Below the pieces are notes generated by a model. It was not told where the DNA came from. It made no database searches and saw only the letters and a program-made list of their open reading frames with translations. This document shows positions 1,603 through 50,874 of a DNA stretch of 64,000 bases, piece after piece. This stretch comes from Pempheris klunzingeri (taxonomy: Eukaryota > Chordata > Actinopteri > Acropomatiformes > Pempheridae): contig NC_092034.1 in the NCBI RefSeq assembly GCF_042242105.1, forward strand, positions 17,600,644-17,664,643, read 5' to 3'. The position numbers and the translations under genes were made by a program. Position 1 is the first letter of the stretch. The number at the start of each line of letters is the position of its first letter.

Positions 1603-4600
1603 GTATGGTGAGCCTGTACTACCAGTCAGACCGTGATGTGCAAGAGGACCTGGAGCTCCAATGCTGGATCAGAGACATATCACAGGAAGGCTTCACAGAG
1701 CTCCCCAACTTTGGTAAGTTAGTGATGTCCTGCATGTTCATCTGTGATACTTCTGTAAATACAACCAGGTTAAAAAGGACATTTCCAGACTTTATTTTAC
1801 AGCTGGGGGAAAATGAAGGCCTCCATACAGCTGTGTTAAAGCTGCATTAAATTCAAATATTGGCTTTTACCAGATTTACTTTATAACTACATGTATAATT
1901 GATGTCTCTATATGTACAGTTTATACTTCGTACTTTACATCTCATAGTGTTGGGGTTGTTAGCTTAGCACCCTTTTGGTACAGTTGGGAATTTTTTGTCT
2001 TCATTTCCAAACACATAAATACTGAACAGTGGCTCATGGTCCATTATTCTTGCTGAGAAAATGAAGACACTCAAACGTTTGCATTTGAGATCAGAAGTTG
2101 TAGAGAATATGAATTAACATATCAATGAAGGGGTGAATATTATTCCAACTGCAGTCATTACAAACCCATACATACCTGGATAGTATGATCTCTGCCATAA
2201 TGTCACGTGACTCAGGTTGAACAATGTGGACACAAAGTGTTCTGTCTAATCCAGTGTTGCTATAATTTACTGGAAAACCCATTTAATCCACTGTAAATAA
2301 TCTGTCTGCTTGGTGCAAAGAAAAAGAGAAGGACCGGTTTGGAATGACTTGCATTTATATGAATTTGTATTAAAATACGTCCTGATCCTCTTCTGAGTTA
2401 CAGTGAACAATCTGTTTGAACTAAAAACTAGACTCAATCTCTAAGTTTTTAAACTTTAGGGAGGCACTTTTAAAAACCATGGAGGTATTTTGAGACACCT
2501 CAGCTGATAATAACCACTCCTCGAAGGAAAGACCTCTCAGATCAACAATAATTCATAGAAAAGTTGAAAGGGTTACACAGTCATCTCCAAGACTTAAGAT
2601 ATTCATCCAACCACAGTCACACAAGATGTCTACGCATGGAGAGAACTATGGACTGCAAGCCTCCCTCGAAGTGGCCATAAGCCAAGATGACTGGGGGGGG
2701 GGGGCATGATGAAGAATGGAAGAATGTCATTGGAACAAAGTAACATCTCCGTTCATGAGTCCACCACTCTGACTTTGAGCAGGCGTGGTGTTCATGGCAG
2801 GACAACACGGTAGAAACCATTACATTGCTGCACACCTGAACTTTGCCAAAGAGCATCTGGACACTCCACAATACTACTGTGTTTGAGGACAGACGAGACT
2901 ACGGTCAAGTTGTTTGGGAAGAAAACACAGCATATGGAGGTGGAGTGTAGAGCTTCATGATTCGGGGCTTCTTTGCTGCCTCAGGGTCTCGACACCTCGC
3001 AATCATTTAGGGGAGGATGTTCACCAAGACTTAGAAATAGATCTCATAAGAAAATGTCGGGGTAAATGGTAAATGCTCTGTATTTGTACAGCACCTTTGA
3101 CTACTCAAAGCAGTTTTACATCACATCCTCATCCACCCATTCACACATCATTCATTCAGGAGGAATCTAAATTATCTAAGTGTGGGTTAGGGTCCAGCAG
3201 CTGAAGCTCTCTAGAGGTTTGGTGGTGCAGCAGTACAATGGAGCACCAAAGTAACTCATCCTCCAGCATTGGAGTGGCCCAGCGGTGAGCTCAACCAAAT
3301 ATCTGAGTCACTTCCTTTTCCGACCAGCAAAGTGACAGTTTATTGGATGTGCTCAATGAAGAATTATGAAAAATTATAATTGTGTCTGTTTTATTAATAT
3401 AGGTCTATTGTAAGCAAGTCAGATAATACTTCCAAAGGGTTCACTCTCTTTTTTGGCACTGTATTTGTCTTCATCACACCCATGAGCTACGTAAGCTCTG
3501 CAAAACTGAGGAGCCTAATCTACAGTAGCTAACTAACACAAATCTCTCATCTGAATTTACATCCTGCGTGTGCAGAGATCCTGCCTGACAGAAGCTCAGC
3601 TTTTAGAAATCAGTGAAAAACTCAAGCTAGAGAGATGATGAGCAATTAGCATAAACATACTTCTACGTTGTTGAGAGCTCTTGTTTCAGATAGATGGAAT
3701 CAGACTGCAATATTTGACAGTATTTCACAAACTGCAGAGGATTTATTCATATAGAGTGCTGTGAGAGGCAGAGGAATGACACATTATTTGCCTCCTAACA
3801 CTTGATGGTGGGTGTGTGTTCAGGTCTGGCCGGTAAGCTCAGCACCAGAGAGGAAATGTCCACCCTGCTGACAGTGGCCATCTTCACCAGTACAGCCCAG
3901 CACGCTGCTACTAACAACGGACAGGTGCCCAGCACTCACACACAGACACACTGTGATGTTCATGCTGCTAAAGATCTCTCCGGCGAAGAGTTGAAGGGAA
4001 GACCTTTCAGCGCTGCCCCCGTTTTTTAACAGCACCACGAGGAGTCGGACCTCCTCCACAGAGTGGCTTTAACTCCCTCTCTGTTGATGTTTTTCCAGTT
4101 TGACTGGTGTGCCTGGGTCCCCAACACCCCCTGCACAATGAGACACCCACCACCAAAAGACAAGGATGCCGTTACCATGGAGATGATCATGGCCACCCTT
4201 CCCGATGTCAGTCAGTCCTGTGTGCAGATGGCCATCACATGGCATCTGGGGCGAGCACAACCAGATGCAGTGAGTCCGAACTGTCTATGAACTGTCTGGT
4301 TCATAGATTAAACCTCTAATGACTGTCCACGTTCTAATTTTAATAAGCTGAGTCTCACTTAAAAAGTTGAACTGCTTGATGTGAGCCGTCATCAACGTCA
4401 TTAAACAGTCTGTTCTCTGTGTGCGTTAGCTGCAGGCTTCACGGATCACATCACGCCACATCACACTTGATTTGCTTCCAAACTGCTTGTGTCATCTTTA
4501 ACACGTGAAATCGAATGTGCAGTAGATGAATGTGTGAGCAGTCTGCTAGTGTTAAATTCTGCACAGCTCATTCTAAACAGTGATGGTCAAACGTCCACAT

Positions 4601-5246
4601 GAAGTAACAAAGAGCTAAATAAGTATTAGTGGACAAAGACTTGAAGGAAATGAAATAGATGGCGTGGAGAACGGTACAGGTTACCCTCAGTCTGACTCCT
4701 TTGGTTCATCAACCAGAGGTTTAATGGTACCAGTTGGCAGACAGACTCCACCCAGCATACCGACGTTAGAGCGAGAAACGTTTGTTTAAATGAGAATCAT
4801 CAGAGAAAGAGACATTTCCTGTAATCTATGTCAGAATAACAGGAAAAATATCTTCCTACCAACATATCTAATATACAAAGACTACTGACGGGGGTCCACG
4901 GGGCGACAAAAACTGTAAGAGACAACCATCATAGCAAAATGTTAACTTCCTGCTCCAAACATGAATAGTCATGTAATTAAATGAACCTGACTGGCGACAG
5001 TGATCACGTAACATCACAGACATGAATTCCTGTCTCTTCAGCAGCTTTTTGTTTTCTCCTGCCCAGATTCCTTTGGGCAAATACACAGAGGAGCACTTCA
5101 CTGAGGGGCGGGCCCGGGAGCTGATTGACGGATTCAGAACAGAGCTGAAAGAGATCGAAGGCCACATCCTAAAGCAGAATGAAGGACTGGAGCTTCAGTA
5201 TCTTTTCCTCCTGCCCAGCCGCGTAGAAAACAGTATCACTATCTGA
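1603..5246 (+). CDS. alox12: arachidonate 12/15-type lipoxygenase, C-terminal exons (partial)
   Basis: Non-heme iron lipoxygenase that inserts O2 into polyunsaturated fatty acids; only the C-terminal part of the catalytic domain is in the window. Coding exons are 1603-1713, 3824-3924, 4099-4269 and 5067-5246, all with AG/GT borders and compatible phases (2-base carry-in, then 1, 0, 0). Exon 1 reads [19 protein letters not shown], exon 2 contains the iron-ligand block [10 protein letters not shown] (His and Asn ligands), and exon 3 has [15 protein letters not shown] then [19 protein letters not shown]. The last exon ends ENSITI-stop, placing the C-terminal Ile that is the last iron ligand. The exon 3 text is closest to mammalian ALOX12/ALOX15 as I remember them. 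The two N-proximal His ligands would be on exons left of the window. Introns carry a Tc1 remnant and a SINE fragment. The family is certain; the exact paralogue (alox12 versus another fish lipoxygenase) is inferred from the wording and from BACC1 and mir-497/195 being next to it, as in human. Confidence 0.88.
2575..3060 (+). mobile_element. decayed Tc1-like transposon in lipoxygenase intron
   Basis: The + strand text follows a Tc1-like transposase gene: TGTCTACGCATGGAGAG, then AACTTTGCCAAAGAGCATCTGG, then GACAGACGAGAC, AAGTTGTTTGGGAAGAAA and GGGGCTTCTTTGCTGCCTCA. These are the recognisable DDE-region phrases. Stops and frameshifts, and a run of 13 G, break the frame. No inverted-repeat ends were identified. 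Confidence 0.6.
3062..3215 (-). mobile_element. SINE fragment, antisense
   Basis: GGTAAATGGTAAATGCTCTG, then CTACTCAAAGCAGTTTTACA and CACCCATTCACACATCATTC are the reversed tail and body of the SINE at 1313-1585. The tRNA-like head is missing. Confidence 0.65.
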
Positions 5247-9901: not shown

Positions 9902-11887
9902 ATGACCTCAGCCTCAACTAAAGTAAGTGATTTGCACAGGAACTACATGAACGCGCAGTTTGTTGCATCAGGATAAAGCTGTTCCGGTCTGAACGGCGTC
10001 CTGTTGTTTGGATACGCGCGCGAGCCTCACGTCTCCCGCTGCTGCTCGCGAGGTCAGCTGGGGGCTCCCGTCCTCCGGGGGCTCCTGTCCTCCCGGGGCT
10101 CCCGTCCTCCGGAGCTAACCCCGATCTGCCCCTCAGACCCCCAGTCCACATGTCCTTCTTAGATTTGTTCAAGGGAAGCTGCTCCAGGGAAAACAAAGCA
10201 CTGATCTCCTGCACACACCGACATGAGACAGCAGTGCTTCTAGCTCTGAGACACACTAGTGCCCAACACCTTTGGGACAGAGCTGAGGGCAGCTGTGAGC
10301 CAGCCCTGATCGGTCCTGATCGGTCCTGATCAGCCCTGATCGGCCCTGATCAGCCAGTATCGGTGCCCTGATGCTCCACTGGTTGATTCAGAGCGGATCC
10401 CTGCAGGCAGGATCCAACATCTGGTGGGAAGAAAGCACAAGAGTGGAGGCAGCTCCAGCATCGGTGCCCCATGTCAGCCATGTCACAGGGCTGCACCTGT
10501 CAGTGTCTACATACTTTAGAACATGTTGTGAAAGTCTTACACTGCATAACTGTGCCCACGGTGTGGTGACTGACACTGTACTCTGTTATGTTCCATGGAA
10601 TGAGGATTTCCTGTGTCTTTTATTTGAGTTTTAGTGTGTGTGAAGGTGAAACTGGCACCAGGTGCTGTTTTAATGACCGTTTGTGCTCCACAGGTAGGTG
10701 AGATCTTCTCTGCAGCCGGAGCTGCCTTCACCAAACTAGGAGAGCTCACCATGCAGCTTCACCCAGTGGCAGACTCCAGTCCTGCAGGGTAACACACACA
10801 CACAAATACTCATACACATGAATACAGAGTGACATTTGAACAGAGAAATTTGAAGTTTGGCGACATTCCATGAGGTGAATTCTGCTTGAGCAGCTGCTGA
10901 TGCTGCTGGTCAAACACCTTCACCAGCCGGTCAGCCGGTCAGCCCAACACGCTGACTGTATCTCTGGCAGCTGGTATCATGGTACCAAGTGTGTGGAAGT
11001 TTTTTGGAGCTCGCTGATTCACTGTTGGTCAGTTAGGCCTCTGCTCCATCAAGCACACGGCTCAGTGGAGCTCAGATACCTTGTTGGTTTTTATGTTATT
11101 TCCACAAAAAAGTACTTTCAGGAGCTGAAGGAGTGACGCTGTTTCTTATCTGTCATGTGCACATGAAATGGCATCATGTAAATGTGGCAGATTTAGCATC
11201 ACAGGCTAATTCTATGTTCTACACAAGCATGAACAGAAAAACACTTAACAAATAGTAATCCAATGACCCGCTCACTGCTCCAGATTCTGAAGGCGTGTTT
11301 GATTCCAGGGGATGCAGCTGTTGGCCGTCGTAGCTCGGGTCAGACACACAGATTGGTATCAGTGTTGTGGTTGTGCCTGCAGCACAGATGGGCTGTGAAT
11401 GTGTGTGTTAGTTTGGCACGTAGACTAGAAGTGATTCACTCTTCACAAGTGTCTTTGCTGCTGTTGAGCTGGTCTGAATACTAAAGTCAGTTCAGTTCCC
11501 ATCTTCCCCCCAGCGGTCAGACCAAGAGCACAGTGAAGAGGAAGCTGTATGAAGACGGAGCTCTGCCCGCCCCCTCTGACGGCTCCAAGAAGGTCGTCAA
11601 GAAAGCTACCGCTGCTGTTGCCGTGGCAACGCAGAGCACTCCGACCGCCATCTCCGTGCCCGCGACTCATGTTGTTGTGGCATCGGGACTACAGGGTTCC
11701 CCCTCCATCCAGCCCCCCCTGAAGAAACAGAAGACTGCAGGCGAGTCAGACAGCTAAACCTGATGAAGAATATTATTCATGTCCACGCTATAATGAAACA
11801 GGACTACTGAGGGAATTTAATGTGGCGCCAGGTTTGGACATGTTTTGAACATTTGAACTGAGCTGAGAAGATGGACAGGTTCTGGAT

Positions 11888-11921
<34 letters not shown>

Positions 11922-13213
11922 TGCTGTAGTGTTTTTTATTGACTGCAGCAGAACAATGTTTTAATCAGTAATTTCTCTCCATCGGGCTCAAAATAATCCC
12001 ACAAGCATCATACAAAGCACCGACATGTCTCAGCGACAGGTTTGGGCTTGTTTAACTGCCAGCTTGTGCTCTGGCCCAGATGTGTAAAATGTAAGATGCC
12101 ATGCAAAGATAATTCCCTCCATTAAAGGAGAACGTACAACCATCCGTCATAACTGCTTGTCTTTCTTTTTCCTTTTGAAGCAATGCATGTGTTCAAATTC
12201 CTTGTCTCTGTAATCATTTCAGCTGAACTGTAACAGTAAGCTTAGTTTCTTAACAGTACTACTTGTTGTCATCTTTTTGGGTTGTGTGTGTGTGTGTGTG
12301 TGTGTGTAGATGTGACCCTCAGTGCTCTCAATGACTCAGATGTCAACAGTGATCTTGTGGACATCGAGGGATTGGGTGAAGGATCCAACTCCAAAAAACT
12401 CAACAACTTTGATCAAGGTGAAGCACACAGAGGGCTGGTATGTCTGTGTCTGGACTGAAACACAGGCGTCGCATCACCTCTAGTATTTAAACACCTTGAA
12501 AGATGCCCAGGTCGATGCTACTTAGCTGGTGACATTTGTTCAGATTTCCTGTCCTGTGTGTGAATGATTAGTTTCCCGATGGACGATGGTATGGATGAGG
12601 GTGAGTGGTTTTTGTAGCTGAAAGCACTTGAAGTGACTGAAAAAGGACTAGAAAGGTGCCATAAGAGGACAGTCCACTTGTTATACATCTCCCAGTGATG
12701 TGTTAAAGGAAAACGTGATCGCAACACTATCACTTTACTTTTTGTTTTACTTCCAGACAGATGATGTGTATATCACACACACACACACACACACACACTG
12801 TAGCTTATTTGGATTCAATGTTGCTGCTACAAATACTAACTTGAGGACCAAATGTGGCTGAAAATAGTCCCCAACAAAAGCACTACTTCCTCCTGTTTGA
12901 GTAATGTTCGGTAAGAACTACAGTGGGCGTCTGTTTTAGGAAATGACCGAGTCGTTTTAAAAAGCCAGGCGAGGAGCTTGGAGCCACAGGTAGAGCAGGG
13001 AAGGCAGGGAGTGTTGGTAGAGGGTTAGGGTTAGCCTTTATTAGCTTTGGTCTTTTAATTGGATTTGCTGACAATAACAAATATGTGGAATAAATCCCCA
13101 CTTGTCCTTAAATGGAGCTGTACAAATGCTGTTCTTGTGTCTCCTTAGATAACCTGAACCTGGACTCGAGCCTTATCATGAATCCCAGTGACCTTCCTCT
13201 GCTCTCCCGCTGA
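9902..13213 (+). CDS. bacc1: BPTF-associated chromatin complex component 1 (BAP18 / C17orf49 orthologue)
   Basis: Nuclear subunit associated with chromatin complexes (known for human BAP18 with BPTF/NURF and MLL1). Coding exons are 9902-9922, 10694-10788, 11514-11740, 12310-12417 and 13149-13213; the phases join to 171 codons plus stop. The N-terminus [20 protein letters not shown] and the following [18 protein letters not shown] are practically the human protein. The block [10 protein letters not shown], a Lys/Ala/Pro linker, PLKKQKTA and [20 protein letters not shown] follow. Two oddities: the SANT (Myb-like) exon that in human lies between SSPAG and xxVKRK is not seen, and exons 2 and 3 join in frame without it. 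The intron after 11740 also uses a GC donor (GCAG|GCGAGT), and its acceptor is preceded by a GT repeat. The C-terminus has an extra exon ([20 protein letters not shown]) relative to the human form I remember. The start is the first ATG in the CpG island and matches the conserved N-terminus. Confidence 0.93.
10305..10363. repeat. 11-bp tandem repeat in BACC1 intron 1
   Basis: About five units of CCTGATCGGTC / CCTGATCAGCC with point changes. Confidence 0.85.
11891..11918. repeat. (CT)14 microsatellite
   Basis: A perfect dinucleotide run in BACC1 intron 3, about 150 bp downstream of the GC donor. Confidence 0.95.
12284..12307. repeat. (GT)12 microsatellite abutting BACC1 exon 4 acceptor
   Basis: The GT run ends directly at the TAG acceptor (12307-12309), so it occupies the place of the pyrimidine tract before exon 4. 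Confidence 0.95.
12552..12680 (+). mobile_element. SINE tail fragment
   Basis: GTGTGTGAATGATTAGTTTC, then GATGAGGGTGAGTGG, AAGCACTTGAAGTGACTG and ACTAGAAAGGTGCCATAA resemble the 3' half of the tRNA-derived SINE. The head is missing. It lies in BACC1 intron 4. Confidence 0.5.
12774..12798. repeat. (CA)n microsatellite
   Basis: A perfect dinucleotide run in BACC1 intron 4. Confidence 0.95.
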
Positions 13214-15916
13214 CCTTTACCTTCCTGCGGACTTCATAGAAACGATGGACAAACAATGGACAAGCCAGATGATGCTGACCACCCGCATTAGAGTTAATAT
13301 AGTAGGACTGAATATTGTGTGGTGTCATGCAGGCCTCCCATCCGATCCAACAGATCCCACATGTCTATCAGACCGTTTCAAGTTTTTTTTATTTTTCAGT
13401 TAAAGACATTTTTATTTTTTCTCTTCCTCATTGACTTTTGCTTCGTAGGAACAATGGAATCCTAAAATGTAAAAGCCAGATGACAGCACTGAGGAATCTG
13501 TTCTAAGATTCATACTTCCTGTGTTTCTTTATAGAGAAGCCAGGAAAACAAACAATGCGGCACAGAAACTGGTCTGCAAGACAAGATGACACTGCCAGCC
13601 ATCTTTGTTTCCCCATCCAGATGCCCCCGGACTGCAAAGGACAAGGATTCAATCTGCCACCATTTAGTCATTTACATTTATTTATAGATATTAACACAAG
13701 CCTTTTTTAGAACAACAAAGTCATTTTGGACTCATGTCTGACTAAATGGTTCCTGTTTTTTTTACGGAGTCCCAAAAGGTGACTTTTTTTTATTGTGTGT
13801 GAAAGTTAGTTATGATTATTGTCGCTGTCACATTACCATGAAAGCAGCATTCTAATGTAACTGTCAAGATGGAGCTCATTAGAACTAGTTTATATACTAC
13901 ACCCACCCACCCCCCTCCAGTGCGAGATCAATATTCATATTTTTCATATCGATGCATAATTATAAGTTAGAGTTACTTTTCAAAAGAATAGCTTGTCTGC
14001 ACAAGAAACACCATCTTTTGGCCCTTTAGGGGTTCTATAGGTTTTCAGTGTGGATGGTCTAAATCTCTTTTTGCTCATCTTTTCTCTCCAGTTAAGGTGA
14101 AACTAAATAATAACAAGAGTAGAAAACAAGAGTAAAATAATAAGAGTAGTTCTAAGGATATCTTGAGTTAACATAATAATCATTTCCTTTTGCTGAAATA
14201 AAATATATTGTGGTGATAGCACATTCATTCAACACTGAGACATCAAAATGGCAGAACAACAGTGGGGAGTAAGCGTGGAAGCCAGTCATTTTGAAGTACA
14301 TACTTCATTTAGAAAACAATATAAATATTAAAATAGTTAGCCTAACTTAGCACAAGGACTGGAATAGGGGAAAACAGCTGCCTTGGGCCAACACTGGTTA
14401 ACAAACAAAAATGTAACAGAAATGTAAGAATTAGTGGTTTCAGTGGGAAATGTGTGCTGGAGCCATTTCTTTGTAAACTACAGCAGTGACTTCCAGGAGT
14501 CTTATTGTCAGGATCCTTCACAGAGGTGGTGTGCAGACTGATGAACTGTTGTCTGGTGTCTTTTTCCCACCCAAGTACATTTCTACTTCAGCTCTGGACT
14601 GTACACACAGACAGGAGACTCTTCTCAAAGCAGATTTCCTAAAATGTTGTAGTATTTCTGTACTAATTTGGAGATGATTATTGTGATTACAATTCATTTA
14701 TCTCACTGTAAGGAGCCTAAGAAGTGCATTTGAGCACCAACAGTGTCAGCATTCAAGCTAAAGGTCTGCTTTTGGCTTCTGTATTTAAGAAATAAGCATA
14801 TTCCTAAATACTTGCTGGTTATGAATCATGACATCAGTCAGTTAGATTGAACATCTCTCTGGTTGTGACTGTACTAGAGCTCCATGTGGAGGCTCTATAA
14901 CAATAACCCATCTGTATGCCACGTGTGTATATAAAACGTCACTATGGAAGTTGGAAAATGCTATTAGTTTTTATTTCCTCTGTCAAAGCAATGTCTCTGG
15001 ATAGGTCTAGATACTCACTATGGTTTCAGAAGCACCCCGTATATATGACTCATATCCAGCTCATCCAGGGAAATACTTCTGTGTTTTGCCAACAGGAAGT
15101 ATCCCCAAGAGCTCAGTGACAACTGGGCAAATGACTATATCTAATGTGTGCTGGTGAAAGCCTTGAGATGTATGTGGAAGCCTTGGTAAAGCTAGTAAGC
15201 AACTATGAACTCTTATTTTATTAAGAAAAATGATACTGGTGAACCTCATTTGATGGGAATCTACAGAGCCCATCTCAAACAGGTGTTTAGCCTCGATTCA
15301 TTTTCACTCGACTGAAATGAAGTAAGACCAGTGACTGTGGACAGTAGTAATAACCTACAGTGCTATGCTGTCTGCTATAGGAAGAGTTTTAAACAATAAA
15401 AACAGTGGTGTTGTCCTTTACAGGTGCACACTGCAGGAGGGAGGGACTGGAACAGATCAACATGCTTACTGAGGGGTTTGTAGATGGGACTGATGAATGA
15501 GCCCCCACTTTCCTATCAGACTACACTACTACTGGAGACCAAAATAACAACCATCCTTACTGGCATTTTGAAATCAAGTGGAGTTACCTCCTCCATGCCC
15601 CACATTTCCAAAGATAAGAAAAGTAATGTGGAAATCTAAGTGTTGGCAGCTAAACACTGCTGGCTCCGTGCCATGCACCTTTATTAAGTCTAACAGCTAT
15701 AGTCTAAGGCTCTAAGGTAGAACATGAAAGGAGGACACGTTTGGGTTTTCAAACACCAGCCTTTTATTAATAGTGCAACAGCCAATATCCACACGTGTCA
15801 ACATGATGAAGTAAGAGGTCGTCTTTAAGAAATGACACTGTACAGATTTGTTTTTTTTTTGTTTGGGTAAGAAGAAAAGTTATGTGTGGGAGGAAGATGA
15901 TGCTGGAGGGGTGTGT
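13214..15916. other. BACC1 3' UTR and intergenic DNA
   Basis: The first several hundred bases after the BACC1 stop are presumably 3' UTR. An AAATAAAATAT motif near 14198 is one possible poly(A) signal, but no downstream element decides it. No coding exon is seen. Confidence 0.4.
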
Positions 15917-15996
15917 GTGTCTGACGGGAGCAGCACATATCATACTGGCAATGCATAGAGAACTACCAGTAATGATGTGCTGCTACAGCCCGACAC
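15917..15996 (-). ncRNA. microRNA precursor, mir-195-like (miR-15/16 family)
   Basis: On the minus strand the sequence folds into a near-complete hairpin. The 5p arm occupies 15963-15985 and begins TAGCAGCACATCATTACTGG; a 14-nt loop covers 15949-15962; the 3p arm at 15928-15948 begins CCAGTATGATATGTGCTGCT. The lower stem is GTGTCGGGCTG against CTGACGGG. AGCAGCA at nt 2-8 is the seed of the miR-15/16/195/497 family. The 3p arm and its CTCC flank resemble human mir-195 3p (CCAATATTGGCTGTGCTGCT). It lies downstream of BACC1 on the opposite strand, as human mir-195 does. The + strand also folds, but its arms fit known family precursors less well. Confidence 0.85.
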
Positions 15997-16006
15997 ACTG
16001 CTTTCA

Positions 16007-16010
<4 letters not shown>

Positions 16011-16062
<52 letters not shown>
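16011..16062. repeat. (CA)26 microsatellite
   Basis: A perfect run 15 bp beyond the mir-195-like hairpin. Confidence 0.95.
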
Positions 16063-16063
<1 letters not shown>

Positions 16064-16374
16064 GAAAAATCAAATCATATCCAGACAAATGGACTTCCAG
16101 TGTTGTTGGCTTAAGGTGTCAACAACACCTCAGAGGCGTCACACTGTCTCTGACTGTCCAACGGCAATGAATTCTCAAATCATATCCAGTGAAAAGTGAT
16201 GAGAAAATGATTTTGTTATTCTTACCTTCAAGATCAACGCATAGATTCATACATTGTCAAGAAAAGAATTTAGTTAATAACCAAATGTTCTCAGAAGAAT
16301 GAATTTAAATGAAATTATGTGTTTTTTTACAATGAATGTGATGCATGAATGTATTATATTCATAATTCACAAAC

Positions 16375-16378
<4 letters not shown>

Positions 16379-16411
<33 letters not shown>
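16379..16411. repeat. (GT)n microsatellite
   Basis: A perfect dinucleotide run. Confidence 0.95.
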
Positions 16412-16413
<2 letters not shown>

Positions 16414-16549
16414 AGGGAACAAGCTGAACTGTCAGTGAGAAGTACAAAGTAACACACGTCACACTTCCACTCAGTGAAAGTTCAGGAGATCAAACCTTTG
16501 ACACTCACTTGTTTTCATAATATAATAGATATTCCATTTTTCAATGATA

Positions 16550-16685
16550 TATATAGAGATAGATAGAAATACTTTATTGATCCCTGGGTGGAAATTCTGG
16601 TGCTACAGCAGTAAAGGAGTAAAAGTGACCACCACCATGAATACAGGCAAATAAAAAGATAAAAATGTGCAGATTAAAACCAAAG
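16550..16685 (-). mobile_element. non-LTR retrotransposon 3' end, antisense
   Basis: AGATAGATAGAAATACTTTA followed by TTGATCCCTGGGTGGAAATT is the reversed 3'-end signature of a common fish LINE, with a (TCTA)n tail on the minus strand. Only the end is present. Confidence 0.5.
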
Positions 16686-16751
16686 TGTGTGTGTATATAT
16701 ATATATATATATGTATATACATACATATGTGTATATATATATCTATATATC

Positions 16752-16782
<31 letters not shown>

Positions 16783-16825
16783 GTATATATATATACACGT
16801 GTGTGTGTGTGTGTGTGTGTGTGCG

Positions 16826-16869
<44 letters not shown>
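16686..16869. repeat. compound TG/TA/CA alternating tract
   Basis: About 185 bp of almost uninterrupted alternating purine-pyrimidine sequence: GT, then AT, then (AC)13, TA, (GT)12, TA, and (CA)18. It has several self-complementary blocks, so apparent open frames on both strands (HTHTH, VCVCV) are low-complexity artefacts. Confidence 0.95.
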
Positions 16870-16872
<3 letters not shown>

Positions 16873-18300
16873 TCAAATCAGGTTTTGAACTGTGCTCTCA
16901 CTTTATCAATCCATGCTTACAGTTCAATCCATTCACAGACTTGTTCTCCAGGTCCACATGCCCTGCTGCATCATGATTGACTGATTGTCGGACAGGGAAA
17001 GTCCATTGATGAAAACTAGACACATTAAAGCAATAAACACTAACATCAGTGTCATTAAAAATGACCTTGGGCATGTTGGGTGATTTGATATCTGCAACCA
17101 TTTGATTGTAGTGTGTCCCTACAGCAGGGAGTGATGTTCCAGGTCGGTGTGTGTTCTGGTCAGTTAGGGAGAATGTTAGCAACTGACCACCAGCAGTGCA
17201 CCGTCACTGACTTACCTACAAATACTATAAATCCTATTAATATTGGTAGTTTGTCACATTTATTACATGTTCTGTTTTTAATCAGTCACGATACAGGACT
17301 TAGAGTACTGGCCAGCTTTGGCAGTGACATAACTGTGCAGAGTTTCCTTCTGATTTTGACAGATATATGTGGACATACTTTGCTTCATTATTTAAACAAG
17401 GGAGAACAAAGAAAAAATGATTTCATGACCAGCATTCTTTCAGCATGTTCAAATGGAACAATACTAAATTCATATTTGTGTGCAAATGATTCATTCTAGA
17501 CCACAATGTAAGAAATTCACTAAGACTCATTCATTTGACGGATAAAACGGACCTCTGACCATGAGGATAAATGGGGTGGGGTGAACCCTGTCCTGTGTGC
17601 TGTGTGGCCCAGCTGAGCGGACTGTAAAGTCCTGTTCAGTAGGTACGGTATCATTTCTACTAGGAGAGGTACTCTGAGACCAGCTTTCATGTGATTCATT
17701 TGTTTTCCAGTTCACTGAAATCAACTTGGTTCATGAAGGCAGTAATATACAGGAGAGTCAGCTGAGCAGCATTTTAAATCAACTCACTAATTACAAACCA
17801 GTCAGAAATGTTTCAGGTTCCTCTGGCCTAACACTGAGTGAGGTGAAAAAGAGGCTTTCTTTTTTTTGTGATTCTAAATTATTATTATTTATTTACTTTT
17901 TTTACAATGATTTTTTTACACTCCATAAAAATGCCTGCCTTAACAAGAATTGTATGCTTCCAATACAAATGTACAATCTAATAATCTCAATGTAATGTGG
18001 CAAATTCTTATTAAAACGGCCCTACACCTGGGAGCTGTGGCACTGGGAATGCTGCACAAAGGATCACAGCTTGACCAGTTTGTCCAGTTTTCTCACTCAC
18101 ATACTCACAGTCCTGATGTTTCTGATGTGTCAGAACACACAGATGGAGCTGCCCCCCCCCACCCACACTCACATGGACAGAGGACATGTATCACCTCTGA
18201 CCTTTAAGAGGACGAACCGTAGTGAGAGGAGTTACTGCAGTCACAAGTGGGAGACACGTGAGGCCTGGCTGGGAGCTGTTCCCAGGGTGCTTTGGGGAAT

Positions 18301-18387
18301 CCAGGGCTCACGGTGGCAGCACATAATGATTTGGAGTGATTCAGCACATATCTGCAAAACATGATGTGCTGCTAGAGCGCACCCTGG
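18301..18387 (-). ncRNA. microRNA precursor, mir-497/mir-15-like
   Basis: On the minus strand the 5p arm (18353-18374) begins TAGCAGCACATCATGTTTTG. The 3p arm (18315-18334) is CCAAATCATTATGTGCTGCC, and the lower stem closes with CCAGGGT against CCAGGG (18301-18306 and 18382-18387). The seed is AGCAGCA. The 5p arm differs from human miR-15b at only a few positions by memory. The flank CTCTAGCAGC is reminiscent of the mir-497 precursor, and the position next to BACC1 and a mir-195-like hairpin on the same strand argues for mir-497. Transcription order (497-like, then 195-like) matches human, but the spacing is about 2.4 kb rather than a few hundred bases. miR-497, miR-15 and miR-457 naming cannot be settled without a database. 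Confidence 0.85.
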
Positions 18388-21300
18388 ACACACTGAGGCT
18401 GCCAGTCCAGCAGACTTAGTGCCTCAGACACTAAGAAAAACACATCAGTTTAACACCCAAAGTAATAATAGGGAATAACAGGGAAATTCACATGTCTAGC
18501 TTTTTTAATTATTTCATTAAATTAATTGATTAATTTAGCTCCCTATTACTAATGTGTTTCATTAATTAATCCAATTCATGTAAATGTAGAACACATGCAT
18601 AGCATAAGTACACTGCTTTAAAAGGGGTTCTCTTTTAGCAGCACCGTGACAGAAGGAATCTAGTTTCTGAAAGGAAATCTGACACAAACAAAATGGATGA
18701 AAAAGACAAAATGGAGGGAAAAAAAGACGAAGGGTAAAAGTGAAGAGTACCTGAGAAACACTGCTTATTTGCTTTGGGAAAACTTTATAAAATCTGCATT
18801 TCTGTTCAGGTGTGTAAGAACACCGAGGTTGTGGAATACCATCATCTCACCGTCTCTTCCATGTTGTCTTGTTTTTTCATCACTTAGTGAGTAAAAAAAT
18901 GTTTTGGTGTAGATTAACCTGCTCCTGTATTTTTTCAGAAACCATTTCACATATTACAAAATTCCTGTTAATTGCTTTTCAGAAGACACTGATTTACACT
19001 GATAACTGTGGAATGACATGAAACTACACAAATGTAGCTACATTTAGTGTGAAATCTCAGTTCTGCCTGAGATAAAGCAGCTGAACAGCATCTTACCTGC
19101 ACGCCTGCAGAGGGTCACACATTAGCACTGGAAAAGGAAAAGATGCGTTAGTGGGAGGGGTGGGGGCCGTTGGCAGGTCATGTGTTGCTGATGTGGCCCT
19201 TGAGAAATAATGAAGACTCATGCCACATGCAGTAGTATAAAAAAGGATGGTTTAGCTCATTCTATCACTTGTCAGACTAAGCACATGCAGAGTGCTACTG
19301 GAGAAGGATACAACATGACAGACTAAAGGAACCATCCTAACCTGCTTGTGTCACGTTTTATTTAAGAATATGCAATAAATATGCACAGAAAGCTACAGCT
19401 GCACCTGACCATTATATTAATCATTGATTGATTAGTGCTTTATTAATGGTTAACTTTTAGTCTGCAAGAATTCAACTGTTTCCCACAGTGAGGTCTTTAA
19501 GCTGCTTATTTATTTTGATGAGAGATATTCAATTAACAGGTACATGAAACAGAGATAAAGCACCAAAACCTCCCACTAGACAAACTGACACCAGTTCAGA
19601 GCAATTGCAAATTATCAGAATTAACTAAATACAAGAAAAGCCTATTTAATATATAATTATATAATTGATTGGTTTTACAAGTGTTGTTGATAGTTCTGAA
19701 GCTAACTGATTCCATACCCATATCCAAGGCAGCCATATTAATGCCACATAACCAAAGGAAAGCAGCCAAAACAGCCAGATTTGAGCCCTGTGAGCAGCAT
19801 GAAGCTAGTCCACAACATGGAGCGGGTTCTAACAGGAGCAGTGTCACAGCACAGACTCAGTGACTACACTTCAGTTAGTAGCAGTGTGTGAGCCGTTTTA
19901 CACTGCCATCATCTGTTCAGCTCCCTGTTAGTACTCTCACTGTATCATCCTGTTTCTCCAGTGGAGCTGCTACATTAAAGCTCCCATATATTAGTGGAAA
20001 TGAGTGATAAAGCTGCTGTCTTTGAAATGTAGAATGCACTGTATTATTCCCTGTTAGGGCTGGGTTACATGGGCAAAATCCTGTATCAGGGAATTTGTTA
20101 TTTTTAGGCAATACCAACATATCGTGATAAGGTACATTTTCTGGAAGATCAATTGTTGTTAATGGATAAAATATCCCGAGGACTGTGTCCGTTTTGGGCT
20201 AATTTAGTGAATTAAACACCTGACAAATCAAGTCACTCTATTCCAATGACTATTGTTAATAACACTGTTATCATCAATCTGCCCTGAAAAAAATCAAAAG
20301 TCTGATTTTAAGGGTGGACACCTCAGTATAGACAATATGATGGTTTGTTTTATTTTTATATGGTTGACAAATGTCTCAAACTACAAACTACAGGCAAGGG
20401 TACTGCCGAGTGATAACTACAATGGAGCTACAATTATTAATAAAACATCTATCAATTTCTGAGTAATCATTTATTTGACAAAGTGTCAGAAAAAAAGTGT
20501 CCATCTTCAGATGGCTGTTTTAACCAACAGTCACAGGTGTGTTTCATATTTTGGACGTCAATAAATAATTGATGATCAACATTGTTGGCAGTGTATTTTC
20601 TGTTCGACAATCCCTCAATGAAATCATCATTTCAGCATTAAACTACACCATCAATAACAAGTACCTGCTAACTGTGAGTTGTACTGGATTGGGTTGCAAC
20701 TAACAATTGCTTACATTTTTTCTTACTTATTCAATTAATTGTTTGGTTTCTTAAATGTCAGGAAATAATGAAAATTGTCAATTCCAGGTTCCCAAAGCCA
20801 CATTTTCACATTTGTGTTTCAGGGAGGGAAAGTAGCACCAGCCACCAGCCAAATGCTGGTCAAAGTGGCTGCTAGACTTCAGATACAAATGAGTGATTTA
20901 CTATTGGCTGCTGAATTTTCATTTGTTATCCAAACAGCAGTCCAAAACCCAGTCCTATTCCCCTTCTAATCATAAAAAACAGTGACAAGGCAACAAATCC
21001 TCACATCTGAGAAGCTGGAACCAGAGATTAATTTTGCCATTTTCCCTAAAATATGACTAATCAATTATCACAATTTTTTTCTGATTCATTTTCTGTCAAT
21101 TAAATTACTATTGTTTCTCCTCTAAAATACAATATATACAGTATAAATATGGTGTAACTGCAAACCAATAATTATGCTGTCACTTTCTTTCTGTAAAGCT
21201 GAAAAAAGTCTGAGGGCAGGCAAGAGGAGGAAATCGTGGCCTGTAAGCACCACACCCAACTTCTAAGACTTTCACTTTTGGATTTCTATGATTTTAAAAT

Positions 21301-24600: not shown

Positions 24601-25637
24601 AAATCCCACAAATTCAAATGTGACAAGTTTCTGCTTTTTCCGAATTTATCTCATTGTAAATTGCAGTTTGAGGGTTTTGGATTGTTATTTGAAGACATCA
24701 CATTTGGCTTCTGTAAGTTGTGAAGGGCATTTGTGCTACCTTTTATTGATCAAATCTATCAAACAATAGTTATTTGTATAAATCTGATAATATCGGATAA
24801 TAAAGATAATTAATAGGTGGCCCTTGAAAAGACACTTCACTTTATTTTTATGTCGAGGTAGAGCTGACTAGCTGACACACACTCTACATCTCATTAAATA
24901 ATTCACAAAAAAGGGTTTAAACAATAAACCATAACTATTTAACTTGTAATTTCAACATTTTTCAAGACAGACTGGAGACACTGGTTCGCTACACTGTATG
25001 AGTGAAAACAAATGTAGGCTGAGCTATTAGTACAGTTTATCCAAAGCGGGGAGAAGCTCACAGAGCCTGTCTTAAAATAATTTCTCAACATAGGGAGGAA
25101 TATGCGGGCTGCTTGAAGCACACACACATATCAGAGGCACATATTACTCCACTGGCACTATTATCCAGACGGAGGGGCATTGACTGTCTGCATTACTTTT
25201 AGACCTGCCTGCATGCTTAGGCTATTTTATGCATTATGTTGTTCGATTAGGTTGTACTAAATGCTGGTTGACTTAAACTATTAACTATTTTACATTTTGC
25301 TGAAAACCCCCACTAACCTTAACCTAACTAGCTCCTGTTTGGCTCAGTTTATATTCTAGCATGTTTGTAATGACCAAGTGTGGATCTATTTTTTCTTTAA
25401 AAACTAAATTCATGCAAGGGCCAGTTTTATTAGTAGAGCACTATTTTATTAGTAGAGCCCTGTCTGCTGTGCCAACCCTGGCAGAAACATCTGATTATAA
25501 CACTTTAGTTACATTCAATAATTAATACGGGACGCTGAGTGCTTCAGAGGCACGAGCCTCCACGCAGATAGGTGCACCTGTAACTTGTCTGTGGGAGCGG
25601 GGCAGAATGTCGCCTGTCTGCTAGCAGTCCTGGCAGG

Positions 25638-25670
25638 ATGACAGACAGACAGACAGACAGACAGGCAGGC
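25638..25670. repeat. (GACA)n / (GGCA)n short tandem repeat
   Basis: GACAGACAGACAGACAGACA followed by GGCA units. Confidence 0.95.
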
Positions 25671-25799
25671 AGACTGCTGACTCAGCAGCTTCACCGAACC
25701 AAGCCGAACAGCTCGTCTGAGCTCGTCTTTCAACAGAATCTAAAATGGATTAAGTTAGTTTGGCCTCAAGACTCAATAATAAAGTGGTCGCTTTTTTGG

Positions 25800-26790
25800 T
25801 TTTATACAGCTACGGTGGTTTTCCGAAGCGTGTTTGGTCGCAGCGGACGGCCGGGGTGGGCTGGGGTCTTTGGGGAGGAGGCTGTGACTGGGGGAGTGTC
25901 CGCTTCCCCAACATACTCAGTTATCTCCGAAAAGTCTTTTGTACTGAAATTTAAAACAATTTCTCCAATGTAAACGTTAGCCTATGTAGAGAAACGGTTT
26001 AGCTTCTTTTTTTTCTACCTGCCTCAGTGTAGAAAAGAATAAAGCAGCCGCTGTCCGACAGGCAGCCGGAGCGTTAGCTGAGTGTGGAACAGCAGCCTTT
26101 GTCTCAAACAGCACTTCATTACAGCCGAGCTAATCAGGAGGGAAGCCACACAATAGTAACGAGCAGTTCACCCAGAAGCAGCTCGCTTTGTTTCCCTGGA
26201 ACTGTAACACGCCAAGAAGTATAAAACCTAACCACTGATAGAGATAAAAACATAAATGACTACGTATCTCACCTATAAAAGTGGATAAATCTGGAAGGAC
26301 CAATTTGCTTACCTTCCGGAGAAAAAAACGGTCCAAAAGAGATATGGTGTAAAGATATTCCTCGACTTACAGTGATTATGAAAAAGACAAATGAAGTGGT
26401 GTGTAAATGTATTTGAAGCCGGACTCTCATTCTGTGTCAGTGGAGGATTTGAAAGTGGCGCCAACCGCTGCGCTCCCCGGCTCCCCACACACACCGCCGT
26501 CACACACACAAAAAATAAATAGAAAATCAAAGGCGCCCGCAGCAATATTTCACCGGTACCAAAATGTGCCTGTGGACCGACCTGACCGACCCCCGGCGGA
26601 ATGTCTGAATAATATCACTCCTGTGATTTTTATTTATTTTTTATGTGAAATTAAAATAACCGTCAGAGGTTTCCCCAGGCCGCGGTGCAGGACGGGAGAT
26701 TGCGCAGGGCGGTTGTGTTTTGAATTTCTAACCGGTGAGGGAGGGAAGGGGAGAGGGAGGGGGAGGGGGGGGGCACTGCATCCTCCTGCA
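25800..26790. promoter_or_regulatory. CpG-rich patch, candidate promoter of the microRNA host transcript
   Basis: Against an AT-rich background this kilobase has clusters of CpG: GTCGCAGCGGACGGCCGGGG near 25840, GTGGCGCCAACCGCTGCGCT near 26460, GACCCCCGGCGGAATG near 26588 and GGCCGCGGTGCAGGACGGG near 26680. No coding gene adjoins it on either side, so a non-coding transcript is the simplest user. A minus-strand start here could make the primary transcript for the hairpins at 18.3 and 15.9 kb; that link is inference only. Confidence 0.35.
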
Positions 26791-29700
26791 GGGCTCCCTG
26801 TATACAGCTCTAAGTCACAGTCAGTCAGTGGTGGAAAGTAAGAGCACATTCTTGGGTATTTTTGATTTTCTCCACTCTACATCTCTTTGCTCCACCACAT
26901 TTAACTGACAACACAAGTTACTTTGCACATTCAGATCAACAATACAGATAGAATCAATAGATCAGGCGTGTGTTATTATATGACAGCCACGTTTCAAAGT
27001 AGAAGTAACTACTTGAGAAAATATTCGCAGGCCTTTTTTACACTAAAAACATACATTTACGCAGGTTTCTGAATCTCCCACATCACCCAGAAGACCTGAC
27101 CTCACAACGGATACCTATAGTCCTGACCGCAAAGTGCTAACTGTATGAACTGCCGATATACCAAAAAGACTAGTAGTATATTAATTACCTTGTGTTAACA
27201 TCAAGGTTTCCATTACATGAATCAAACAAATACTTTACTGTATATTGGTGAGACATCTTGAATGTGATCTGGCGTAACCAACCTGCATCTGTGTTTTGAA
27301 ATAATTGAAGTATGATCATCATCTCAGTCAAAGAGGGGTAATGTGAAAATGTCAAGAAAAGACACAGACCAAGAATGTCCCAGTTGATGAGGTTTTATAG
27401 TGTCGTGTACGGTGTCTTGTTATGTCAGTAAGGTGGTGGTTGAGGGTGCATTTGACTAAAATCTTTGACCAGAGAATGACCTCAAAACTAGAAGCATACT
27501 CTAAATATGCCCAGTGACAGCACGTGATGATATGTAGTGCAGAAGTAGTGACTGAGGAAGGCCTCACATCTGTTTGTGTAGTATACACATATGCTGGTTT
27601 AAGGGCTTGTTGCTCATTTTCTGATGCATTTTAAAGTAAGATTTGTGCTCCTGTACTGACAGATAAAGAGAGAATACAGGTTCCATTTTCACAGTCTGCC
27701 ACAGTGACCTTTTTAACCTACCACCAGGTGGTGCCAAAAATAGAAACCACTGACAACAAACAAAGTGGCAAATTCAGTTTTCGGCAATGATCGAACTGGT
27801 TCCAGTAAGAGAAGATTTATCTTCAGCAGAATGTACATGTCTTGTAATTATTTCTGTCACAGCCGGTGGCTGCTAACGTGTGCAGAGAACAAGCAAGAAG
27901 GTTCTTGAGGGACCTGTTTTATTCTTGTGCATTAGAGAATATGTACATCCAACTTTCCCAAAAGGCTTCCTAAAGTCAGTGTTTAGTTTGAGTTACACAG
28001 AAGAGTATTAGGGCCAGGCAAAGGAAAAAAATTGTGGAGCATAGTGAACAGAATAGTGGCAAAATTTTGAGAATGTCAATATTAGCTCCTGACATTAGAA
28101 AAATCAAGGAGGGAGATATCAGGAGTAAAGTTGTAAAATCAAGAATAAAGTTGAGCATTTGAGAATAAACCAAACTACTAGTGTTAGTGCATATAAGTTT
28201 GACTTTCATTTAGTCTGGAAATGCAAAATGTTTCTCACATTTTAACTCATTTTCCCTCTCATGCCTAGCCCTAATAGAGGTATCAGGTCGAGGGGAGTTC
28301 AGTTCATAATGCAAACTGAACACAAATCTGCTCCGTCTGTAGACTGAAATCACGTCACACATTACACTATACTTACTGCAGATGTTCCCGATTTTGAGGT
28401 TGAATCCTCAATCCTATTAACAGGTCAAATTTAAATTTTCAATGCATCTGTTTAAATCAAGACAAGATTTATTTAAGTGCATTATCACACTGAGGTGTAT
28501 CACATTCACCAAAAAATATTAGCACAAGTACTAACAATGTAAGCTGCATTAATAGAAAATTATGAGAAAATAAGCGCATGTGGAATTAGAGAGAGATGCA
28601 ATAATAACATTGTAACAATGAAACCAATGCAGATTAACAATGGTTAGGTGCAGGGTGAAGGTTACAAACATGTCTCGAATCAGCCAAGTAGGAATATGTG
28701 TGTTGTGATGTTTTACAATTTATGTGGACTTTTTATTATTTTTCGAGTCTCTCCTTTAAAGTTTCCAAGGAAGAGTCCTCTGACATGGGATTATTTTTAT
28801 GCCATCTGAAAAGTCATCCTGACAACTATGTACAGCTTTACATAGTGTAGAGACATCTGAGAGGCAGTCAGGTGAGTATTTTAACGTCAATAGATCAAGG
28901 TTAGCGCGATAGGATCAAATGTTCTGTATTGTGAGCAAGTTGCAGTTTTTTGACAGATGACCGGACAAGGCTGGACAAGAGAAAAAACTCTGATGATTAA
29001 AAAACAAAAGATGCATACTGGCTATGGTGCACAGGTGGTGAAGTTATAGGAAGTTACAATAACTGTGTGACACAGCCTAATTTTCACAGAAAGGTGTGAG
29101 AGAAAGGGATTTCTGAGGCAGTATGATGAACAGCCGTGCACTTTGTTTGACGCATGTATGGATCAAATGTCCATCCTGTATCATCATCTGGTCATGCCAT
29201 CAAGGTGAAGAAACATCCGTGAGGAAATCTTTGGGTTTGACTGGTCCTATATGAATAGTTTGGTCTCTCAAAATAAATGGGGGAGTCTTTATTTTCAAGG
29301 TGAAAGTACCTTCAACAGTCTATTCTGTCTCTTACTACTAACTTCTAAATTGTTGGGCCGCTTGCTTGTTAAACACAATCTAATTTTACTTATAGACATA
29401 TTTAATAGAAAAGATGCATTGTGTGGGTGTGTATGAATTTGAGCTGTTTAAAGGCACATTTGATGAACTTGGGTTGAGTAACAAAAGTAAAGTAACAAGT
29501 AATGCAAGACATTACTTTTGCTGCTGAGTATTTAGTAATGATATTACTTTTCCAGTATTTAATGGGTTATTGATGCAGTTACACTGCTGGTCAGATTGTC
29601 TAACAGCATCTGAGACGCCCTCCCCCAACTCCTTTTCGACAACCAGTCCACTAGAGGATATGGTGGGGGACACACGAGAGGATCGTTGTAACGATTTGCC

Positions 29701-30550: not shown

Positions 30551-31942
30551 TCATTCAACTATATATCTGACTTTTGCTCTGTTCATGTATGATGGACTGT
30601 TTTGAAATGGTTTTTTTTCTTTATTGTCAATACCATCTTCAATTCCTCCCTCCTCTGCGCCCTCTTCTTTAGCCATCATCCTCAGTGGCAATAGAAGCCC
30701 ACCATGTTGTTGGGTGGTGGTGTTAACTGCCTGGCAGCAGTGAGCTCCCCCCTTGTCTTTAGTCAGGAAGTATAGGAGGGCGTTGAGCCATGCATTGAAT
30801 GACGCCAAAGGCCTCGTGACCTTATAGCACATGGAGACCATGGTCATGGTGTGACAGGGGACGCCCTTGGTCACTTTCAGCAGGAGGAAGATGGTTCGAG
30901 TGACATGAAAGGGGAAGAAACAAAGAGCAAACAGAAGGGTGATGGTGATGATGGTCTTGATAGATTTACGTCTGCGATTGGCGTAAGGGGAGTGCGCGCC
31001 AAGAAAAATGGAAATGCCTTCATCTCTTCTCAGAACCCTTGACATCCCATTGCTTCTCTGTCTTCCTTCATGTCCTCCCACTCTCTGACCTCTGTGGGAT
31101 GAGGGTTGAGAATGCAGCGTCCTAAATATGGTCAGAACAACGTGAGAGTAACACCAGGCAATTATTGAAAAAGGCACAAAAAAGCCCAGCAAATGGAGTA
31201 TGATGCCATAGGGTACGTAATCAGGAAACTCCTTATCAATGGCATCGTCCCAACAGTTCTGGTACGCTTCAATGACCCCTCCCAAGTTACCATAGCTGGG
31301 ATATCCATTCATCAATGATACCTCATGGCTTGGGTTGTCAACACTGCTTGCATTGCCATCAAGCCCTGCCAGTCTTGTCACGTGACCAGTCTGAGCAAAC
31401 CGGAATATGGGGCAGGTCAAAGCAAACACTACAATCCAAACTAAAACACAAGTGCACTTGACAGCCTTCTTAGTCTCCAGTGTGATGACTTTCATCGGGT
31501 GGCAGATACCGAGGTACCTGTGGACAGAGATGCAAGTGAGGAAGAAGATGGAGCAGTAGAGGTTAAAGTAGAAGAGAAAACGGACCAGACGGCACATGAA
31601 GTCCCCAAAAACCCAGCGGTCACGCATGACATAACTAGCCACAAGGAATGGCAGTGACAGGCCATACATGAAGTCTGTAGAGGCAAGGTTGACCATGTAG
31701 ATCAGCGAAGCATTCCAGCGCTTGGTCCGGCGGAAGGAGCGATAGAGGATGACAGAATTGAGGGAAATGCTAAAGATGAACGTGAAAGAGTAACAGATGG
31801 GAAGGAAGATGTACTTGTAGGACTCGTCTATGCTGCAAGAAGGAGATGGAAGTGTGGTGGAGGGAGAAGGTGAGAAGGATCTGAGAAGGTCATGGAGTAC
31901 CGAGGCACTGATGTTGGGTGGAACTCCACCTTTGGATGGCAT
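30551..31942 (-). CDS. P2Y-type nucleotide G-protein-coupled receptor (P2RY2/P2RY4-like)
   Basis: Plasma-membrane receptor for extracellular nucleotides, 463 residues in one exon. It has an N-glycosylation site NIS at 10; Cys36 before TM1 (residues ~44-69); TM2 ~78-104; Cys117 and TM3 ~113-140 with HRY (141-143) in place of DRY; TM4 ~162-181; a long second extracellular loop with NAS at 197 and Cys230; and TM5 ~245-274. A long basic third intracellular loop (275-328) follows, then TM6 ~329-354 with HVTR (346-349), and TM7 with KVTR (374-377). The HxxR in TM6 and KxxR in TM7, with FYFNLYCSIFFLTCISVHRY in TM3, are hallmarks of the Gq-coupled P2Y1/2/4/6 group. The usual DPxxY at the end of TM7 is NALLY (387-391). 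The C-tail is acidic and ends YIVE. The start is the ATG 35 codons before Cys36; the exon extends upstream to an acceptor at 32130. Paralogue not decided. Confidence 0.92.
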   Translation of the reverse strand: MPSKGGVPPNISASVLHDLLRSFSPSPSTTLPSPSCSIDESYKYIFLPICYSFTFIFSISLNSVILYRSFRRTKRWNASLIYMVNLASTDFMYGLSLPFLVASYVMRDRWVFGDFMCRLVRFLFYFNLYCSIFFLTCISVHRYLGICHPMKVITLETKKAVKCTCVLVWIVVFALTCPIFRFAQTGHVTRLAGLDGNASSVDNPSHEVSLMNGYPSYGNLGGVIEAYQNCWDDAIDKEFPDYVPYGIILHLLGFFVPFSIIAWCYSHVVLTIFRTLHSQPSSHRGQRVGGHEGRQRSNGMSRVLRRDEGISIFLGAHSPYANRRRKSIKTIITITLLFALCFFPFHVTRTIFLLLKVTKGVPCHTMTMVSMCYKVTRPLASFNAWLNALLYFLTKDKGGAHCCQAVNTTTQQHGGLLLPLRMMAKEEGAEEGGIEDGIDNKEKKPFQNSPSYMNRAKVRYIVE

Positions 31943-32129
31943 TGTGTCGGATTACGGGATTTTCATGTGAGTGACAACTTAAACCAGGTTGTGGCTTGTG
32001 CGTTTAGGATCCTGTCAAGCTTATTCTCTGTCATCCTCACTGTACTGTTAAATGGTTTGATTTTGTACGATCCTGGACAGTGGATTTCCAGATGATTTCA
32101 GATGGTCACATCCAGGACTGGGAGTTCAC
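31943..32129 (-). other. 5' UTR part of the P2Y receptor coding exon
   Basis: On the minus strand CTTTTTATCTCTAG|GTGAAC gives a good splice acceptor with the exon starting at 32129. A non-coding upstream exon probably exists, but I could not locate it. Confidence 0.55.
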
Positions 32130-49771: not shown

Positions 49772-50874
49772 CTCTGGGGGGGGGGCAGAGAGCTCATTAT
49801 ACAACATGTTGTCCAAGCTAGATGCCTGGTCACATTTAGAATTCTTTGATCAGAGATTTCTCCTGTAATATCTACATTTGACCAGTTTTAGACAATATTT
49901 CATTTAAATAAAGTTCTTGCAGCTGCTTGTGATTAACATTTGAGAACGAGTTCTGTTAAATAACAACACAACTTAAAAGAAACACTCATTATTAAGGTTG
50001 GCTATCAAATAAAGTACTGCATCAGCCACAGAACAATATGTGACGCATTTCATTTCATTTAATATCCAGTCCTAAACAGAGCAATTAAAGGGATAGTTGG
50101 GATTTTCTAAAGTGCTGTTTGTATGAAATACTTATCCACAGTCAGTGGGCATGCCCCCCAGTGTGGAGTCCTGGCACAGACACTCAGCAAAGTGCTGCTG
50201 TGGATGCAGGCGGCAAGAAAATGGATTTCATCCACCTAAAAGAATCAGCATCGGTTGGAGTCCACGCTTCATTTAGCATATATTCATCGCTTTGCATTGG
50301 TGGCAGGCGGTTCTTCTCACCGGGGAGCTGAAGCTGCTGGTTCTCTCATCAAAGCCGACAGACTCCATTGACTAAAACAGCAGTTTCCAGGAGTACAGTC
50401 GTAGTCGCTGGACTAACACTGCCTCGACCTGCTGCTTTGTTTGAGCCGCTGTGTGACTTTGGTGTTTTAAAGGCTTCCTCCTGATCATTAACAACCTGCT
50501 AGTTGGATGAGCGGGTGGTGGCAGTGTGCCAGGTAAGATGTCAGTGGAGTCTGGCTGCTTTAAGAGAGCACACAGTGATAAAAGGGTTGAACTCCCAGGA
50601 CAGTGAAAAGCGTCTGATGACACTTCAACTGATGCTGATGTTTTTTTTTAGGTGGATAAAATCCAAGTGTGCAGCAGCCTGAGCTGGGCCTGTGTGCTCC
50701 TCCACCTGCTGGGGGCACCCTCACTGTGGAGAAGGAGCTCACAGACCCACAGCCCAAGGTGGGGCTGCTGGCTGGGACTCTGGACCCGTGCCCTCCCCAG
50801 TCCGGCCCTGCCGAAACTCAACAGTTGGGGCAGCCAGCGGAGCTCAGAAAGCGCTGGAGCCCCCACACAGAGCG

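Follow-up and report, generated by a model that had tools for sequence, protein, structure and literature searches.

A mir-15/16 family cluster downstream of BACC1 in Pempheris klunzingeri: fish mir-457a and a mir-15-type partner in the likely place of mammalian mir-497~195

In the human genome the gene order at 17p13.1 is ALOX12, RNASEK, C17orf49, MIR195 and MIR497. In the direction of transcription of the mammalian mir-497~195 cluster (MIR497HG), the mir-15-type hairpin comes first and the mir-16-type hairpin second, an order that is implied by the name of the cluster. C17orf49 is introduced in one report as an antisense transcript downstream of mir-497~195 (PMC2632650), and the text of another has MIR497HG overlapped by the region downstream of C17orf49 (PMC11450065). 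In mouse, both stem loops are placed within 500 bp (PMC5561095). Among fish microRNAs, whitefish miR-457a-5p is tabled as a mature sequence in an Illumina liver study (PMC4938405).

The window analysed here is a stretch of 64,000 bases from Pempheris klunzingeri, and it carries two microRNA-type hairpins which, as far as the mammalian locus is described in these sources, share with mir-497~195 both the succession of a mir-15-type and a mir-16-type hairpin and a position antisense to and downstream of BACC1 (C17orf49). They are unlike the mammalian cluster in that the arms differ beyond the seed and the Rfam mir-497 model does not recognize the first hairpin. We propose that the pair is the teleost counterpart of mir-497~195, with a probability of about 0.88; this figure covers the cluster and its orthology, while transcription of both hairpins as one unit is less sure.

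Two minus-strand hairpins of the mir-15/16 family

The only Rfam matches at gathering level on either strand of the window are two minus-strand hairpins (n=2). Hairpin 1, at 18301-18387, is a member of the mir-15 family (RF00455, 62.4 bits, E 8.9e-14, gathering score 57.3), and hairpin 2, at 15919-15994, is a member of the mir-16 family (RF00254, 40.3 bits, E 1.8e-5, gathering score 36.5) that also reaches 53.0 bits on the mir-15 model, below the cut-off of 57.3. These bounds bear out the original prediction, which had placed two minus-strand hairpins near 18.3 and 15.9 kb. The mir-15 model scores the minus strand above the plus strand at both places, with 62.4 vs 52.4 bits for the 18.3 kb hairpin and 53.0 vs 42.0 bits for the 15.9 kb hairpin. 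On the mir-497 model (RF00793, gathering score 62) the 18.3 kb hairpin remains below cut-off, with 22.3 bits on the minus strand and 35.2 bits on the plus strand. The opposite orientation, to which the 35.2-bit match might point, was rejected because on the mir-15 model the minus strand is ahead by 10 bits, and the gene order agrees with the minus strand.

Each hairpin folded alone is more stable than all of 200 shuffled sequences, at -35.8 kcal/mol (z -3.95) for the 18.3 kb hairpin and -36.4 kcal/mol (z -5.89) for the 15.9 kb hairpin; folding had been named as a check when the hairpins were first proposed. With flanks of 18 and 29 bases the fold of the 15.9 kb hairpin holds (z -5.67, 0/200 shuffles as stable), and with 30 bases on each side that of the 18.3 kb hairpin is weaker (z -2.37, 4/200 shuffles as stable).

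The predicted 5p arm of the 18.3 kb hairpin occupies 18353-18374 and the 22-nt 5p arm of the 15.9 kb hairpin 15964-15985, both on the minus strand. The motif UAGCAGCAC begins at 18374 and 15985 on that strand, coinciding with the two 5' ends that had been predicted. The octamer AGCAGCAC occurs six times on the two strands of the window: once in each hairpin on the minus strand, once on the plus strand at 15929 inside the 15.9 kb hairpin, and three times elsewhere. It is found on the plus strand at 18637-18644, about 250 bases from hairpin 1, where it would form a perfect mir-15/16 seed match in the presumed minus-strand transcript, probably by chance. The processing motif UG at -14/-13 is absent from both 5p arms, the bases there being TC at 18.3 kb and AG at 15.9 kb; CNNC patterns are common downstream of both hairpins and little informative.

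A permissive Rfam search of 9000-30000 for a third hairpin gave 58 matches. Simple repeats at about 16.68-16.94 kb account for 46 of them and the two hairpins for 8, with 4 in other places. Only one, to mir-15 on the minus strand at 18301-18387, reached its family cut-off, and no third hairpin was found in this interval. Matches in the simple repeats (up to 69.8 bits against a cut-off of 90) outscored the mir-15 match in bits and were rejected as repeat matches; bits and E-values alone can thus mislead in simple-repeat sequence.

Identity of the two 5p arms

The 15.9 kb hairpin carries fish miR-457a. Its 5p arm is identical to whitefish miR-457a-5p at 22/22 bases in the published table (PMC4938405) and matches marine medaka miR-457a, as printed, at 21/22, the difference being the first base only (PMC4211694). 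Against the S. salar mir-457a precursor in the same whitefish article, 60/68 aligned bases are identical with gaps set aside, in contrast to 47/68 for the 18.3 kb hairpin (PMC4938405); relative to that precursor the 15.9 kb hairpin lacks 7 loop bases, has 2 extra bases and differs at a few bases on the 3p side. The agreement with carp miR-457a as given in PMC3267759 is 17/20 only. Both the carp sequence (PMC3267759) and a catfish sequence listed as "miR-457b" (PMC3546936) have CAAUAUUGGC where the 15.9 kb arm has CAUUACUGGU, so that among these four fish, on their published forms, the 15.9 kb arm groups with whitefish and medaka. With miR-195 the arm agrees at 16/21 positions, no better than with miR-16 (16/22). 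A resemblance to mir-195 had been proposed for this hairpin; by sequence it is miR-457a, and mir-195 is a name deduced from the order of the genes.

The 5p arm of the 18.3 kb hairpin is most like the miR-15b/miR-15c type. The closest sequences compared are human miR-15b (20/22) and zebra finch miR-15c as published (19/21, with differences at positions 16 and 21; PMC3585881). Next come zebra finch miR-15a (18/21), catfish miR-457b (18/22) and miR-424 (18/22), and human miR-497 is further away (15/21). The gene neighbourhood of miR-15b is presumably unlike that of the 18.3 kb hairpin. The 5p sequence itself was not found in the literature searched for it. A likeness to mir-497 or mir-15 had been suggested at the outset; the mir-15 half is borne out by the family model and mir-497 becomes a positional name.

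Neighbouring genes and the relation to mir-497~195

BACC1 (BAP18) lies at 9902-13213 on the plus strand, convergent with the hairpins, as a joined open frame of five coding exons (9902-9922, 10694-10788, 11514-11740, 12310-12417 and 13149-13213). The joined frame of 171 residues runs without a stop and aligns with human BAP18 (E 3.6e-49, 97 identities in 184 columns), which confirms the adjacency to BACC1 that had been predicted. Independent confirmation came neither from Pfam, where no family matched up to E 1, nor from the PDB, where no match was meaningful. Between 10788 and 11514 the in-frame join leaves out a SANT-domain exon, equivalent to about residues 40-74 of human BAP18. A probe for the SANT segment turned up no convincing match, the best being at E 1.7 in 10500-11700 and at E 0.53 in the whole window, which is free of N, and this copy of BACC1 may encode a SANT-less protein. 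The intron between coding exons 3 and 4 (11741-12309) appears to be of the GC-AG kind, CAG being followed by GCGAGT and not by GT.

Further left on the plus strand, two open frames at 4030-4287 and 5004-5243 contain the final exons of an ALOX12-like gene. The best PDB match of both is 12-lipoxygenase ALOX12, clearly for the former (E 3.9e-23) and narrowly for the latter (E 5.3e-9, with other lipoxygenases nearly equal); neither short frame matched Pfam at E 0.001. The ALOX12-like exons are thus followed by BACC1 on the plus strand, left of the hairpins. A probe for RNASEK, a gene expected between ALOX12 and BACC1, had its best match at an unconvincing E 0.79, and inspection by eye of frames of at least 70-75 residues right of the hairpins revealed nothing resembling the zinc fingers of BCL6B.

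Beyond the cluster the minus strand carries a P2Y-type receptor in an uninterrupted 466-residue frame (30554-31951, best PDB match P2Y4, E 3.3e-59) and a SCHIP1-like frame (41606-42157) whose match to Pfam SCHIP-1_C, 23.1 bits over 36 residues, falls just below the cut-off of 23.5. The frames 43458-43889 and 49337-49849 look by eye like further parts of it, yet have no SCHIP match. A LINE-type element with a 912-residue open frame, including reverse transcriptase and endonuclease domains, is located at 55906-58641.

An orthologous locus should have its two hairpins on the strand opposite to BACC1 (C17orf49) and downstream of this gene, with the mir-15-type hairpin transcribed first, and this is the arrangement found. 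The original prediction of the same order and orientation as in mammals accordingly holds, with the hairpins downstream of and convergent to BACC1 and ALOX12-like exons beyond. The second hairpin is miR-457a by sequence and the first fails the mir-497 model, and orthology to mir-497 and mir-195 therefore rests on gene order. The order favours the mir-497~195 slot, though the arms do not single out the 497 and 195 names. Directly observed are the hairpins, their family, the gene order and the complete match of one 5p arm to a microRNA published from fish; orthology to mir-497~195 specifically is inferred. The cluster is real and belongs, as an ordinary member, to a known microRNA family, most likely in an ancient position.

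Spacing, transcription and alternative readings

The spacer between the hairpins (15995-18300, minus strand) measures 2,306 bases, in agreement with the wide spacing predicted; in mouse, the one species compared, both stem loops are described as lying within 500 bp (PMC5561095). The expanded or differently processed primary transcript suggested at first would have this distance as its basis. Dinucleotide and tandem repeats make up 233 of the 2,306 bases, about a tenth, and on this low coverage an origin of the wide spacing in repeats was rejected. By eye, a stretch near 16.57 kb looks similar to a fish LINE tail.

We propose a single minus-strand primary transcript that would start right of 18.4 kb and carry the mir-15-type hairpin (18301-18387) followed by the mir-16-type hairpin, fish mir-457a (15919-15994). 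Its candidate 3' end is marked by an AATAAA at 15763-15768 on the minus strand, about 150 bases downstream of hairpin 2, with further minus-strand AATAAA signals at 15680 and 15217. A candidate promoter is the stretch of higher CpG (observed/expected 0.60-0.74) at 25501-27000, about 7 kb upstream of hairpin 1, which could equally belong to another transcript. Drosha and Dicer would release 5p arms starting with UAGCAGCAC, and the two arms, with the common seed AGCAGCA, would be expected to repress the usual mir-15/16 targets.

Three other readings were weighed. That the hairpins are chance inverted repeats, or dead hairpins giving no microRNA, finds a point in its favour in the 18.3 kb fold, only moderately better than shuffles once flanks are included (z -2.37); set against the Rfam scores, the z-scores of the folds and an arm exactly identical to a published fish microRNA, it is extremely improbable. 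More serious, and still quite improbable, is that the pair is another mir-15/16 paralogue, akin to mir-15b~16-2 or mir-424~503, that moved beside BACC1; it would work in the same manner without being an orthologue of mir-497~195. The 18.3 kb arm is indeed nearer to miR-15b, miR-15c and miR-424 than to miR-497 in the comparisons given above, but 22-nt arms with a frozen seed hold little paralogue signal. Human SCHIP1 is presumably near MIR15B, so that the SCHIP1-like frame at 41606-42157 could also speak for a paralogue, or might go back to the duplication behind the mir-15 clusters; paralogues arising from whole-genome duplication would be expected to have such neighbours in common anyway. Convergent hairpins downstream of BACC1, and ALOX12-like exons on its far side, make up the neighbourhood of mammalian mir-497~195 and argue against a moved paralogue.

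The remaining alternative disputes only the single-transcript step and is compatible with the rest of the preferred explanation: the wide spacing would separate the hairpins, with poly(A) signals in the spacer ending some transcripts after hairpin 1 or with each hairpin having its own promoter. The 2,306-base gap does contain minus-strand AATAAA signals at 17888, 17259 and 16573, in addition to an ATTAAA at 17277, but such short signals would be expected by chance at 39% GC and a single primary transcript can span a gap of 2.3 kb, and we consider this separation unlikely. Slightly less probable again is the stronger form, in which the two hairpins have moved 2.3 kb away from each other and may be produced separately through the spacer poly(A) sites, leaving the mir-15-type and mir-457a arms out of step, unlike in mammals.

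With the counterpart of mir-497~195 as the preferred reading, the naming of the locus needs one correction: in fish nomenclature the locus pairs mir-457a with a hairpin of mir-15 type, and 497 and 195 are positional names. The titles listed in literature searches around these microRNA names included none on the gene order of the cluster in fish, and we make no claim to a first report. The fish name mir-457a thereby gains a genomic position, the one that mir-195 occupies in mammals. If this position holds across fish, the findings on mammalian mir-195/497 and those on fish mir-457a call for direct comparison.
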